This document shows positions 1 to 7,790 of a stretch of DNA of 64,000 bases, in pieces. Origin of the DNA: Kineosporia mesophila (GTDB taxonomy: Bacteria > Actinomycetota > Actinomycetes > Actinomycetales > Kineosporiaceae); assembly GCF_021129235.1 (NCBI RefSeq), contig NZ_JAJOMA010000013.1:62001-126000 (forward strand), in the 5' to 3' direction. Each line of letters starts with the position of its first letter. Position 1 is the first letter of the stretch. Both the position numbers and the translations under genes were made by a program. A model generated the notes under the pieces. The model made no database searches and was not told where the DNA came from. It worked only from the letters and a program-made list of their open reading frames with translations.

Positions 1-1749
<1,749 letters not shown>

Positions 1750-1753
<4 letters not shown>

Positions 1754-2283
1754 GCGGCGCCGACGCCCAGCGGCACCCGGGCCCGACCCCGGCCACCGCG
1801 GAAGATCTCGCAGCCGTGCACCGTCAGCTCGGCCGTCCCGCCCGGAACGTGGTCGCCGTCGGCGCCCGCTGCCCCTGCGGCCAGCCCGACGTGGTGCAGA
1901 CCTTCCCGCGGCTGGACGACGGCACGCCGTTCCCCACGATGTACTACCTGACCTGCCCGAAGGCCGCCGGTGCGATCGGCACCCTGGAGGCCTCCGGTCT
2001 GATGAAGGAGATGACAGCCCGGATCGCCGAGGATCCGGAACTGGCAGACGCCCAGCGTCGGGCGCACGAGGACTACCTCCAGCGGCGGGCCCAGCTCGCC
2101 CCGGTGCCCGAGATCGCCGGCGTCAGCGCCGGCGGCATGCCCGACCGGGTCAAGTGCCTGCACGTCTACGCCGCGCACGCGCTCGCCGCCGGCCGGGGCG
2201 TGAATCCGCTGGGGGACGAGGTTCTCGACGCTCTGCCGTGCTGGTGGGAAAGAGGGCCCTGCGGAGTGGTGGAGGAACAATGA
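1750..2283 (+). CDS. DUF501 domain protein
   Basis: 177-residue soluble protein of the DUF501 family, whose function is unknown. It is recognised by context (between ftsB and ppx in most actinobacteria) and by VGARCPCGQPDVVQTFPRL, GTPFPTMYYLTCP and the C-terminal PDRVKCLHVYAAHALA. The Cys-x-Cys and the later cysteine/histidine cluster could bind metal, but this is inference. The GTG start at 1750 overlaps the preceding stop, and its TGA overlaps the ppx ATG (ATGA, 2280-2283), so the four genes read as one coupled operon. Confidence 0.88.
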
Positions 2284-3224
2284 CCCGCGTTGCAGCGATC
2301 GACTGCGGCACCAACTCGATCCGGCTCCTGATCGCCGACGTGAGCCGCAGCCGCGGTGAGCTCGTCGACATCGAGCGCCGGATGGAGATCGTGCGACTGG
2401 GCCAGGGGGTGGACAAGACCGGCGAGATCGCCCCGGAGGCGATGGAACGCACCCTGGACGCCGCCCGCCGGTACGCCGGCCTGTGCCACCAGCACGAGGT
2501 GCACTCGATCCGGTTCGTCGCCACCTCGGCCACCCGGGACGCGCGCAACCGCAAGATCTTCGTCGACGGTGTCCGCGAGGCGCTCGGGGTGGAGCCGGAG
2601 GTCATCCCCGGCGCCGAGGAGGCCGAGCTGTCGTTCACCGGTGCCACCGGTGGGCTGCCGGGCGGCCACGACGCGCCGTTCCTGGTGGTCGACCTGGGCG
2701 GCGGCTCGACCGAGTTCGTCCTCGGGGAGAAGACCGTGGACAGCGCGATCTCGGTGAACATCGGCTGTGTGCGGCTGACCGAACGGCACCTGCGCAGCGA
2801 TCCGCCCACCGCCTCCGAGGTGGCCGCCGCGACCGCCGACATCGACGCCGCGCTGGCCCAGGTCGCCGAGAAGGTGGCCCTGGAAGACGCCCGCACCCTG
2901 GTCGGGGTGGCCGGCTCGATCACCACGGTGACCGCGCACGCCCTGGGCCTGTCCGCCTACGACCCGGGCGCCATCCACGGCGCCACACTCAGCCTCGACC
3001 AGGTCGCGAAGGCCTGCACCGAGCTGATCGAGATGCCGCGGGCCCAGCGGGCGCAGCTGCCCTTCATGCACCCGGGCCGGGTCGACGTGATCGGAGCCGG
3101 GGCCCTGGTCTGGCGGCGCATCATCGAGCGGATGGGCGCCACCGGCCGGATCGGCCACCAGGTCACCTCCGAGCACGACATCCTCGACGGGATGGCCTGG
3201 GGCCTGGCCTGGTCCAAGCGCTAG
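2280..3224 (+). CDS. ppx: Ppx/GppA-family exopolyphosphatase
   Basis: 314-residue member of the ASKHA superfamily that hydrolyses polyphosphate or pppGpp. Phosphate-1 motif AAIDCGTNSIRLLIAD is at residues 5-20, RFVATSATRDARN is the conserved loop, and the phosphate-2 motif FLVVDLGGGSTEFVLG follows. A later glycine-rich VGVAGSITTVTAHAL corresponds to the adenosine-side motif. At ~310 residues it is the short single-module type (Mtb Ppx1/Ppx2-like), without the C-terminal HD-like extension of E. coli Ppx. It ends tail-to-tail with fdhD, sharing CTAG at 3221-3224. Confidence 0.93.
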   Translation: MTRVAAIDCGTNSIRLLIADVSRSRGELVDIERRMEIVRLGQGVDKTGEIAPEAMERTLDAARRYAGLCHQHEVHSIRFVATSATRDARNRKIFVDGVREALGVEPEVIPGAEEAELSFTGATGGLPGGHDAPFLVVDLGGGSTEFVLGEKTVDSAISVNIGCVRLTERHLRSDPPTASEVAAATADIDAALAQVAEKVALEDARTLVGVAGSITTVTAHALGLSAYDPGAIHGATLSLDQVAKACTELIEMPRAQRAQLPFMHPGRVDVIGAGALVWRRIIERMGATGRIGHQVTSEHDILDGMAWGLAWSKR

Positions 3225-4048
3225 ACGCTGACGGCCGCCTCTACGCGCACCCGCTCCGGGTGCGCGTAGAGGTTCATCGAGTCACCCCGCACGAACCCGG
3301 CCAGCGTCAGCCCGGCCTCTTCGGCCAGGTCCACCGCCAGTGTGGACGGCGCCGAAACCGCTGACAGCAGAGGGATCCCGGCCATCGTCGCCTTCTGCGT
3401 GAGTTCGAACGAGGCCCGCCCACTGACCTGCAGCACGGTGTTCGACGCCGGCAGCAGACCGTGCGTCAGGGCCCAGCCCACCACCTTGTCCACGGCGTTG
3501 TGCCGGCCCACGTCCTCCCGCACGCAGAGCAGCTCACCCTCGGGTGTGAAGAGCCCGGCCGCGTGCAGCCCGCCGGTGCGGTCGAAGGCGCGCTGCGCCT
3601 CGCGCAGCTTGCCGGGCAACGAGACCAAGGTGCCGGCGTCCACCAGGGGCTCGACGACGTCCTTCATCGACAGCAGGGGACGCCGGTTGAGCACCTCCGC
3701 GATCGAGTCACTGCCGCACACGCCACAGGCGCTGGACGTGGCACCCAGGCGGGCCTGCGGTACGGGTACCCCGGGGGCCAGACGCACCTGCACGGTGTCG
3801 GTGTCGCACGAGGTCAGCTCAGTGATGTCGGCGCTCGCGTGCGCCGCCCCCTCGGCCACCAGCCAGCCCAGGGCCAGCTCCAGGTCGTGACCGGGGGTGC
3901 GCATGGTGGTGGCGATGGTGGTGTCGCCGGCCTTGATGGTCAACGGCGCTTCCACCGCGAGCGAGTCGGGGCGGGTGATCGCGGTGGCCCCGGGCCCTCC
4001 GGCCCCACGCACACGCACGACCGGGCGGCGGTCCACGAGATGTCCCAT
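3221..4048 (-). CDS. fdhD: FdhD formate dehydrogenase accessory sulfurtransferase
   Basis: 275-residue FdhD. The family protein passes sulfur from IscS to the molybdenum cofactor of formate dehydrogenase. The substrate-binding cysteines are visible in SSACGVCGSDSI, with FDRTGGLHAAGLF, VREDVGRHNAVDKVVG and VSGRASFELTQKA also matching the family. ATG at 4048 is chosen because the longer frame, open to 4147, would run into the tRNA at 4133-4205 and adds unconserved residues. No formate dehydrogenase gene is in the window. The last codons form a perfect 16-bp hairpin that probably terminates ppx (see 3238-3272). Confidence 0.93.
   Translation of the reverse strand: MGHLVDRRPVVRVRGAGGPGATAITRPDSLAVEAPLTIKAGDTTIATTMRTPGHDLELALGWLVAEGAAHASADITELTSCDTDTVQVRLAPGVPVPQARLGATSSACGVCGSDSIAEVLNRRPLLSMKDVVEPLVDAGTLVSLPGKLREAQRAFDRTGGLHAAGLFTPEGELLCVREDVGRHNAVDKVVGWALTHGLLPASNTVLQVSGRASFELTQKATMAGIPLLSAVSAPSTLAVDLAEEAGLTLAGFVRGDSMNLYAHPERVRVEAAVSV
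3238..3272. terminator. Probable ppx terminator inside fdhD coding end
   Basis: A perfect 16-bp inverted repeat (3238-3253 with 3257-3272) and a 3-nt loop, beginning 14 bases after the ppx stop. It lies wholly within the last codons of the convergent fdhD gene, encoding LYAHPERVRVE there. There is no clean T-tract on the + strand, so it may work as a GC-rich actinobacterial hairpin. Confidence 0.6.
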
Positions 4049-4132
4049 GTTCCTGAGCGTAAGCCCGCCCGGGATTCGGTGAGACGGTCCCTGCACATCG
4101 AGGACGGCGGACCTAATAACCTGTGTCCGTAC

Positions 4133-4205
4133 GCCCTCGTAGCCCAACGGCAGAGGCAGGCGCCTTAAAAGCGCTTCAGTACGGGTTCGAATCCCGTCGG
4201 GGGCA
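4133..4205 (+). tRNA. tRNA with UAA anticodon (Leu), class-I-like fold
   Basis: Complete cloverleaf. Acceptor 4133-4139 pairs with 4198-4204 (one T-G). The D stem is 3 bp (4142-4144/4155-4157) with GG in the loop. The anticodon stem is 4159-4163/4171-4175 with loop CTTAAAA and anticodon TAA at 4166-4168. The variable loop is only 5 nt (4176-4180), the T arm is 4181-4197 with TTCGAAT, and the discriminator is A4205. CCA is not encoded. The anticodon reads UUA (Leu), but tRNA-Leu normally has a long class II variable arm, which is absent. The 3-bp D stem and A73 are Leu-compatible. Identity as Leu therefore rests on the anticodon. Confidence 0.85.
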
Positions 4206-4734
4206 CGTCACAGACCCGCACATTGAGGTCTGGGGTCGCTGCCTGCGACCTTCGCCGTGGCTGAAGTCCGTCGGGCGGGCATGTGCCCTCGCCCAGCGCC
4301 CGCCGCAAGAACTGGGACCTCATCCGGCGACACCTGCAAGCCGGCGATATGACGGCCGTCGAAATCATCGAAGCCACCGGGTAGTCGTCGTTTCGGCCGT
4401 GGCTGTCGCGTATCGGGACACCCAGGTTCCTGATCCCGGGCCAGGCGATCTTGGAGTGGACTCCGAGCCGATCACCGATGCGGTTCAGGGGCACTGCCAC
4501 CGCCGGTGCACCGAAGGCGGGCCGCTTCCAGACGTCCGGACCGGCCGTACGAGTTTGGGTCCGAGGGGTGAGGGCGATCGGGTAGGTGGTTGTCAGGCCG
4601 CCACAGTGGACAGGAGTAGACCGGTCGTCTACTGTCTGGTCAGGCGGAAGCGCCACCACGGTCCGAAGGTCCTTCCGAGGTGCCGAGCCGCCCGACCCAC
4701 ATCCGAAAACCCAGACTTGTGAGGCACGTCCACC
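4206..4734. other. 529-bp region without a convincing gene
   Basis: Between the tRNA and the DJ-1 gene no frame on either strand has family resemblance or a good start. A short + strand stretch at about 4301-4384 reads RRKNWDLIRRHLQAGDMTAV and ends in TAG after EIIEATG; it looks like the C-terminal scrap of a protein, but no upstream frame supports it. The end of the region carries the operator at 4616-4632. The tRNA-adjacent location and lack of genes would suit decayed foreign DNA, but no direct repeat of the tRNA 3' end was found. Confidence 0.5.
4616..4632. promoter_or_regulatory. Operator 1 of the NemR-like regulator
   Basis: Perfect dyad GTAGAC-N5-GTCTAC, about 100 bp upstream of the DJ-1/PfpI gene. 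The 14-mer TAGACCGGTCGTCT (4617-4630) is the exact reverse complement of 5415-5428, just before the tetR gene. The known E. coli NemR box is also built on TAGAC/GTCTA half-sites. Confidence 0.75.
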
Positions 4735-6089: not shown

Positions 6090-7790
6090 TCAGGACTCGG
6101 TCATCGTCGAGCCCTGGGTGGTGGAGCTGGAGGGCACCAGGAAGGTGACCGTGGGCAGCGTGCCGTCGGCGTCGCGGGAACCCACGGCGGTCGTCGCGCT
6201 GACGGACTTGAAGCTGGAGGCGCTCCAGGTACCGCTCTGCCAGGAGTTGCCGGAGACCTTCACGCCGGTGCCGATCGTGGCCGTGGTCGCGTTGGCCACC
6301 GACACGTTGCCGGTCAGCGTCGAGGTGGAGATCTTGAAGTAGAAGCCCGCGGCGGCGTTGTCGTAGGCGGTGTTGCGGGTCAGGGTCAGGCTGCCGGTGT
6401 TGGAGTTCTCGGTGAAGCCGTTGGCGTTGTTGTCCCAGGCGGCGTTGTTCTTCACGATGTGGTTCGCGGAGAGGTTGTCACCGCCGAGCTTGAACCCGTT
6501 GCCGTTGCCCTCCCAGCCGGAGACGTTCCAGCGGTTCACGCCGTTGCCGTAGGCCCAGTTGTCCTGGATGGTCACCGGGGACAGGAAGTGCCACAGGTCG
6601 ATGCCGTCATCGGCGTTGTTGTACATCCGGTTGCCCTTGACCACGTTCCCGGTACCGGTGCCGAACTTGATCGCGATCCCGTCGGCGTTCTGGCCCTTGG
6701 TCGCGTCGTCGTGGTTCAGGTACAGGTCGTTGTCGAGGATCTGGTTGTTCGTGGTGCCGTCACCGCGCAGGGCGATGCCGGTCTCCTGGTTGTCGTGCAC
6801 GCGCAGGCGCTGGTAGATCACGCCGGCGCAGGAGGTGCACACCACCGGGTGGTTGAGCGCGTTCTTCACCTCGAGGTCCTGCACGGTCATGTAGCTGGCG
6901 GTCTGGTTCCAGGTCCAGGAGTCCGAGGAGATCTTGGAGCCGTCGATGACCGCGTTCTCACCGGTGTACGAGCCGATGGTGATGCGCTTGGACGAGGTGC
7001 CGCTGGTGGCCGGCTTGAGTGTGGCGGTGGGCTTGTAGGTGCCACCGCGCAGCACGATCGTCTGCCCGGCCTTGACGCTCGAGAGGGCCTTGGCGATCGT
7101 CGCGTAGGGGGCGGCCTTGGTGCCGGCGGCGGAGTCGCTGCCGCTGGTCGAGACCCAGATGTCACCGGTGCTCAGGCCGGTGCTGCTGCCGGAGGAGGCG
7201 CTGGTGGTCGTGGTCGTGACCGGGGTGCTGCCCGAGACCGTGCCGAAGCTCCAGTTGTCGGTGCTGGCCGTGGTCGAGCAGGTCTGCTGGCTCAGTGCCT
7301 TGCCCGGGGCCAGGGTCTTGGACCCGGTGTCGGTCAGGCAGAGCTCGGACTGGTCGTTGTCGATCAGGAAGTACGTGGTGGAGGGCTTGACCGCGTAGAA
7401 CTGCGCCTCGGTGCGGGCGCAGGTCGTGGTCACCAGGCTGCTGCCCGCGGTCGAGTCGGTGACCGCCAGGCACAGGCCGCTGCCCTTGTTGACGAAACCC
7501 AGCTCGGTGCCGCTGGTGTCGACCGTCCACTGCTGGAACGCATCCGAGGAGTCACAGGTCGCGCTGACGACCGAGGCGCCCTTGGCGGTCGAGCTGCCCT
7601 GGACGTCGGCGCAGTACGTGGTGTTCTTGTTGATCAGGGTGACGACGTCGCCCTTGACCGGCGTGGTGGTGGCGGTCGTGGTGGACGGGTTGGCGGCCAC
7701 GGCGGCGACGGTCGCGCCTCCCGCGGCGACGGCGATCGCCACCACACTGCCGACCGCGATGCGCCGCAGCCTGTGGTTTCCGGTCTTCAT
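6090..7790 (-). CDS. Secreted PL9-like pectate lyase / parallel beta-helix protein with N-terminal lectin-like domain
   Basis: 566 residues. A Sec signal peptide (RRIAVGSVVAIAVAAGG, cleavage near AVAANP) is followed by a ~130-residue Cys-containing ricin-B-like module (CADVQG, QQWTVD, GLCLAV, DNWSFG; ~45-185), a Thr/Ser linker, then a right-handed beta-helix (~205-530). That part opens with IWVSTSGSDSAAGTKAAPYA and carries QNADGIAIKFG, NNADDGIDLWHF and GNGFKLGG, typical of polysaccharide lyase family 9. The expected role is extracellular cleavage of polygalacturonate or a related uronate polymer; the substrate is not certain. It is a monocistronic gene with its own upstream region. Confidence 0.82.
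   Translation of the reverse strand: MKTGNHRLRRIAVGSVVAIAVAAGGATVAAVAANPSTTTATTTPVKGDVVTLINKNTTYCADVQGSSTAKGASVVSATCDSSDAFQQWTVDTSGTELGFVNKGSGLCLAVTDSTAGSSLVTTTCARTEAQFYAVKPSTTYFLIDNDQSELCLTDTGSKTLAPGKALSQQTCSTTASTDNWSFGTVSGSTPVTTTTTSASSGSSTGLSTGDIWVSTSGSDSAAGTKAAPYATIAKALSSVKAGQTIVLRGGTYKPTATLKPATSGTSSKRITIGSYTGENAVIDGSKISSDSWTWNQTASYMTVQDLEVKNALNHPVVCTSCAGVIYQRLRVHDNQETGIALRGDGTTNNQILDNDLYLNHDDATKGQNADGIAIKFGTGTGNVVKGNRMYNNADDGIDLWHFLSPVTIQDNWAYGNGVNRWNVSGWEGNGNGFKLGGDNLSANHIVKNNAAWDNNANGFTENSNTGSLTLTRNTAYDNAAAGFYFKISTSTLTGNVSVANATTATIGTGVKVSGNSWQSGTWSASSFKSVSATTAVGSRDADGTLPTVTFLVPSSSTTQGSTMTES

Follow-up and report, generated by a model that had tools for sequence, protein, structure and literature searches.

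The only tRNA gene that ARAGORN found in the window, the 64,000-nt stretch of Kineosporia mesophila DNA analysed here, almost certainly encodes, as judged from sequence, the sole tRNA-Leu that decodes UUA in this bacterium, serving ordinary translation in a conserved form whose variable loop has 5 or 6 nt. Standard teaching places bacterial leucine tRNAs in class II. The gene itself is probably ordinary and indispensable; what is unusual is that a bacterial tRNA-Leu should lack the class II arm throughout much of a class, while some relatives have the long-arm form at this very chromosomal site.

ARAGORN called the gene as tRNA-Leu(taa) at 4133-4206 on the forward strand, and the Rfam RF00005 match at 4133-4205 scored 57.4 bits (E 9.1e-10), where the cut-off is 29. 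Together with covariation, these calls confirmed the 73-nt cloverleaf and UAA anticodon proposed in the initial annotation, and the 5-nt variable loop, 3-bp D stem, A73 and missing CCA that it described were all seen in the sequence (Table 1). The bases following A73 are CGT, so CCA is not encoded and would be added after transcription. The acceptor and T stems are divided 7/5 as in a regular cloverleaf, and position 46 is A. When the tRNA was folded alone, its minimum-energy structure was not the cloverleaf; the centroid fold kept the acceptor, anticodon and T stems but paired the bases of the D stem within the D loop. Alignment across relatives, which the initial annotation had called for, was carried out on 50 distinct rows, the window tRNA and 49 of the 98 distinct homologues available, and the cloverleaf was kept, with standard pairs in 99.7% of 1000 pair cells. 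Changes on both sides were observed at 14 of the 20 pairs, and 169 pair cells had changed on both sides compared to a shuffled mean of 43. None of 500 shuffles reached the observed value for pairing or for both-sided change, which argues that the cloverleaf is not due to chance. The three D-stem pairs were invariant in this alignment, partly by design, since the pattern used to find homologues fixes the D arm. A scan near the tRNA, of a kind that says little for actinobacteria, found no promoter or terminator; the gene is presumably expressed.

Table 1 Features of the tRNA-Leu(UAA) gene and its neighbours in the window
Feature	Position	Strand	Evidence
tRNA-Leu(UAA) gene, 73 nt, 5-nt variable loop, CCA not encoded	4133-4205	+	Sequence, ARAGORN, Rfam, covariation
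Acceptor stem	4133-4139/4198-4204	+	Sequence
D arm, leucine-type: 3-bp stem GCC/GGC; loop C13 A14 A15 C16 G18 G19 C20 A20a G21 A22	4142-4157	+	Sequence, identity scoring
Anticodon loop CTTAAAA; anticodon UAA at 4166-4168	4164-4170	+	Sequence, ARAGORN
Variable loop TCAGT (positions 44-48), U48 last, in place of the class II arm	4176-4180	+	Sequence, scoring
Discriminator A73, leucine identity base	4205	+	Sequence; role from PMC9976931
Enolase, C-terminal part in window, conserved neighbour	30-884	+	Pfam PF00113, E 4.7e-126; synteny
FtsB/DivIC-like septum protein, conserved neighbour	881-1753	+	Pfam PF04977; synteny
Ppx/GppA phosphatase domain, residues 244-523 of ORF 1623-3224, conserved neighbour, upstream of tRNA-Leu(UAA)	2352-3191	+	Pfam PF02541; synteny
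FdhD-like ORF between ppx and tRNA	3221-4147	-	Pfam PF02634

We then considered the leucine identity of the tRNA. In E. coli this identity consists of A73, the A15-U48 pair, G18G19 and A20a, the long arm not being part of it, and E. coli tRNA-Leu variants without the arm stay active (PMC9976931); the same source elsewhere adds A14 to these features. The whole set (A14, A15-U48, G18G19, A20a and A73) is present in the window tRNA. Five features were scored, namely A14, A15, U48, A at 20a with one more base between it and position 22, and A73. Across 51 distinct tRNA rows of this genome, the set was complete in all six leucine species and in none of the 45 others. By this scoring, the 'class I body' of the initial annotation comes down to loop size alone, and the core is of leucine type, with A14, A15-U48, A20a-G21, A73, the 3-bp D stem and A46. 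That the gene is atypical for a tRNA-Leu nevertheless holds, because PMC9976931 places cytosolic tRNA-Leu in class II and the window tRNA has a 5-nt loop. LeuRS would most likely recognise A73 and the D-loop and hinge features A14, A15-U48, G18G19 and A20a. Since the E. coli features suffice without the arm, one LeuRS would be able to charge the armless UAA species as well as the armed CUN and UUG species.

The genome assembly (7.78 Mb, 61 contigs, 97.2% complete) contains 59 RF00005 tRNA matches, whose sequences were read. The long-arm leucine species are CAA, CAG, GAG and UAG, with arms of 13-17 nt, and the short-loop leucine species are the window's UAA (5 nt) and a second CAG on contig C37. 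The genome-wide search for a class II tRNA-Leu(UAA) suggested by the initial annotation returned none: no other UAA anticodon occurs among the 59 matches of this 97.2%-complete assembly, in which a gap could hide a long-arm Leu(UAA). Each of two UAA-tRNA patterns had a single match in the genome. A bldA-like DNA query against the same genome gave a best E of 1.95; this search is insensitive, and the argument for a sole reader is therefore carried by the tRNA inventory and the pattern matches. The two weakest of the 59 matches, with TCT and CAT at the anticodon place, resemble broken Arg and Met genes. The short-loop tRNA-Leu(CAG) at C37:4516-4590 (L043, L416) exists beside the long-arm CAG species of the genome, and among the genes in the same 18 kb are those for a two-component system and SelO as well as an NRPS-like end with an MFS transporter. 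Within the window, the protein encoded at 6090-7790 has ricin-B-like lectin and Pel9A-like beta-helix domains and is carbohydrate-related by its families.

To follow the two forms through the class, 138 of its genomes were searched with a pattern that fixes no D arm and allows very different variable-region lengths, and the matches of this census were then read with ARAGORN. A match was present in 116 genomes and absent from 22. The form was a short loop (5-6 nt) in 73 genomes, a long arm in 35 and intermediate or odd in 4, while 4 matches had no Leu(taa) call (G212, G253, G269, G312; that of G253 was labelled Phe(aaa) on a short-loop body). After 18 rows had been dropped by eye, in none of which ARAGORN finds a tRNA-Leu, no genome of the 116 carried both forms. 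All 11 census genomes of the window's order had the short form, and all 11 of family f35 had the long arm with a bldA-type TTAAACC loop; families f32, f43 and f50 had short and long genes in different genera, and f27 had long and intermediate genes, those at L146, L147 and L306 having 7-8-nt variable loops on a short-loop body. The D stem was mostly GCC/GGC in the short form (59 of 73 genes) and mostly GUG/CAC or GCG/CGC in long-arm genes. The leucine set was complete in 68 of the 73 short-loop genes (5 miss one element, one of these merely by a scoring offset) and in 19 of the 35 long-arm genes (16 miss one element), and the 11 bldA-type genes were without the usual GG.

These results bear on a possibility raised in the initial annotation, that the window gene supplies an additional or regulatory UUA reader next to a normal, bldA-like class II tRNA-Leu(UAA). 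UUA is read by bldA in Streptomyces (PMC4932002), and the codon is rare here, with 3 of 1697 leucine codons in the 44 kept ORFs of the window. However, the lack of another UAA tRNA among the 59 matches of the 97.2%-complete assembly, the single match per pattern and the census, where the two forms never met, make such a second reader very unlikely. Nothing was found to point to the non-translational role that had also been raised.

The short form extends well beyond this genome. The window gene was found at full length and 96-100% identity in all five other genomes of the genus that were searched. A pattern scan of named genomes gave at least 119 short-loop loci, whose uniform D arm is by design because the pattern fixes it; among the matches listed were Corynebacterium, Mycobacterium, Nocardia, Rhodococcus, Gordonia, Amycolatopsis, Streptosporangium, Arthrobacter, Microbacterium, Trueperella, Nanopelagicaceae and several MAGs labelled as other phyla. 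For the 123 Leu(taa) called at loci L148-L271, the variable loop was 5 nt in 118 and 6 nt in 5, and the leucine set was complete in 121. Short-spacing matches also occurred outside the class, within the phylum, among the matches listed, which include chance matches. Where MAGs labelled as non-actinobacterial carry short-loop genes (L155, L158, L173, L218), transfer or contamination may be the reason; in 148 genomes of the phylum of the L173 genome, the tRNA-like UAA rows among the matches listed, chance matches included, were long-armed except L173's own. As far as sequence can tell, the gene is the sole, conserved tRNA-Leu(UAA) of its clade, the outcome that, if LeuRS also charges it, would make it ordinary according to the initial annotation. 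That the class II arm has been lost or replaced in much of the class is a real variant, and in this large bacterial class the armless form is the common reader of UUA.

Several further loci were recorded during these searches. In a Rokubacteria MAG (G469), L158 is the short-loop Leu(UAA) of a Gly(GCC)-Cys(GCA)-Leu(UAA) run, and another contig of the same MAG holds a long-arm-type match. Six genomes (G312, G319, G330, G343, G369, G449) had two short-spacing UAA-tRNA matches each among the matches listed. Family f31 (L477, L475; G212, G269) had several bldA-like TTAAACC matches, four of them in G212; two were read and gave no tRNA call. The long-arm Leu(UAA) of genus g24 in family f3 (L090, L092, L093, L094) lies close to a 93-94-nt tRNA-Ile(tat) call, possibly as an acquired pair.

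The meaning of UUA was examined in rpoB and leuS of 27 genomes, with two rpoB frames incomplete. At the TTA columns of short-loop genomes where the other rows agreed to at least 70%, the residue was leucine in 57 of 57; 241 of the 245 TTA codons concerned came from family f40, to which identical tRNA coordinates of G343 and G475 suggest that IMCC26103 belongs. One genome of this family, G327, has 65 TTA codons in the two genes, and all of its 38 tRNA matches, when read, included one UAA tRNA, of the short form. UUA is thus leucine in relatives that use UUA and carry the short-loop form. The CAA leucine species of G327 (L407) is short-looped too, so that both UUR readers are short in this UUA-rich genome. 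The five-feature set was present in the four leucine tRNAs of G327 and in one tRNA not labelled Leu, L415 (G327:C1:958859-958932), a low-scoring tRNA labelled Ala(tgc) that sits on a very long branch beside long-arm leucine tRNAs. One LeuRS above the cut-off was found in all 27 genomes, with either tRNA form. The LeuRS open frames (loci L348-L374) fell into groups of 819-928 and 957-1049 aa; LeuRS size showed no link with tRNA form in the 27 genomes, both size groups occurring with either form, and no special LeuRS is therefore evident. In the longer group the profile match is broken near position 142, independent of tRNA form.

On a different reading, the gene would encode a class I tRNA that belongs to another amino acid and whose anticodon has shifted, UUA then being read as a residue other than leucine. 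Without the variable loop, the core is nearest to tRNA-Arg, at 43 of 60 positions in two genomes and tied with Asn in this genome, and matches long-arm leucine tRNAs at 30-35 of 60 positions. The complete leucine identity set and the leucine at every scored UUA column in kin stand against this reading, which we regard as very improbable. Given the sole UAA reader, the leucine set, the census and the meaning of UUA in kin, charging by the single LeuRS and use in translation are very probable for the window tRNA.

The tRNA lies at a conserved site, eno-ftsB-ppx. A homologue of the window's enolase, FtsB-like or Ppx protein was present near the tRNA at 54 of 118 named short-loop loci, up to 8 kb long, among the matches listed, and the same neighbours were near tRNA-Leu(UAA) in 14 of 76 short-loop loci cut from whole genomes at a length of about 3 kb, a few genomes being counted twice; loci without such a match may not reach those genes or may have moved. 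The Ppx match ends 21-73 nt from the tRNA in, for example, Rhodococcus, Trueperella, Demequina, Corynebacterium and a Nanopelagicaceae MAG, and among 16 long-arm Leu(UAA) loci, a pair from family f4 has a Ppx match at distances of 70 and 94 nt. These distances place the short form behind ppx in many lineages and the long form there in at least one. The mechanical start of the FdhD-like ORF overlaps the tRNA, and its true start probably lies near 4050. Phage and plasmid records also contain similar tRNAs, but the conserved chromosomal site, the strong covariation and a genome left with no other UUA reader found if the gene is discounted make a pseudo-tRNA or prophage leftover extremely unlikely.

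The origin of the short-loop lineage was approached with two trees. In a midpoint-rooted tree of 169 distinct Leu(UAA) cores, with the variable loop omitted and rows of weak acceptor or anticodon pairing excluded, the long-arm genes lay together on one side and the intermediates lay among the short-loop genes. In a tree of 101 tRNAs with the identity columns kept, 10 of 11 short-loop rows grouped with all 12 long-arm leucine rows and one stray (99/95); the eleventh short-loop row (L155) was placed elsewhere, and one f4 long-arm gene fell among the short ones. When the identity columns and rows L155 and L415 were removed, neither Leu kinship (p-AU 0.294) nor Arg kinship (0.141) was rejected, and the grouping of short and long leucine tRNAs therefore leans on identity positions. 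Arm loss and the recruitment of another tRNA body are both possible origins. In a speculative and rather unlikely form of recruitment, UUA reading was lost and then recaptured. The class II tRNA-Leu(UAA) would have become dispensable in a GC-rich ancestor, and a class I body, the nearest being of arginine type, would have been accepted by LeuRS after a change of D-arm register that removed A20 and created A20a. The recruited tRNA would have taken over the site behind ppx, and its lineage would then have spread, also via phages and plasmids, with new leucine anticodons. If true, this would be a tRNA remoulded in nature from one amino acid to another, with the same code restored.

Short-loop leucine tRNAs with the anticodons GAG and CAA were found in a Bixzunavirus record, and ones with UAA in two unverified faecal phage scaffolds; others stood in tRNA arrays of a Mycolicibacterium plasmid and of a Pyrinomonadaceae MAG. 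The last of these contigs (L230) is phage-like, with a dense array of unusual tRNAs and short-loop Leu calls with four anticodons. The exact 59-base core of the window tRNA had no matches in viral contigs.

Among known systems, E. coli leuZ and Streptomyces bldA are class II bacterial tRNA-Leu(UAA). This class shares with the window tRNA the anticodon, the codon, most or all leucine features and the 3-bp D stem, and in the two long-arm f4 genes also the site behind ppx, but has an 11-17-nt arm where the short form has a 5- or 6-nt loop. The bldA type, seen in family f35, combines a long arm with a TTAAAC anticodon loop, and the window tRNA has neither. An ordinary class I tRNA likewise has a variable loop of 4-5 nt, whereas the 4-bp D stem and the G46 in the core of a typical class I tRNA are replaced here by 3 bp and A46. 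A known armless tRNA with a leucine anticodon is a recent tRNA-Met derivative that scores as Met and is of very low abundance; unlike it, the form in the window carries the leucine set and occurs widely in its class. Human mitochondrial tRNA-Leu(UUR) also has no long arm, its identity being mainly A73 and A14 (PMC9976931), but it is organellar with a weak anticodon arm, whereas the window tRNA is bacterial and well paired. In PMC6582537, a tRNA-Leu(TAG) with a short variable loop is described in a transferred Mycobacterium tRNA cluster. It likewise joins a leucine anticodon to a short loop in an actinobacterium; it has a normal copy elsewhere, whereas the window gene is the sole UUA reader found. 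The 8/4 or 9/3 split of allo-tRNAs (PMC7609411) is not present in the 7/5 cloverleaf of the window tRNA.

We found no explicit account of such an armless bacterial UUA reader in an open-access library, passages of PMC4524478, PMC6297222 and PMC4300185 included; other papers or database entries may well show it. As far as could be seen, the widespread armless variant has been little noticed. Isotype-conflict flags on armless leucine tRNAs may mislead in actinobacteria. Two forms of one tRNA that never shared a genome in the census, sometimes at the same site, offer a ready test of arm loss, regain or replacement. A dispensable arm is supported by engineered E. coli tRNAs (PMC9976931), and a widespread armless tRNA as sole UUA reader would be natural proof that a bacterial LeuRS can do without the arm.
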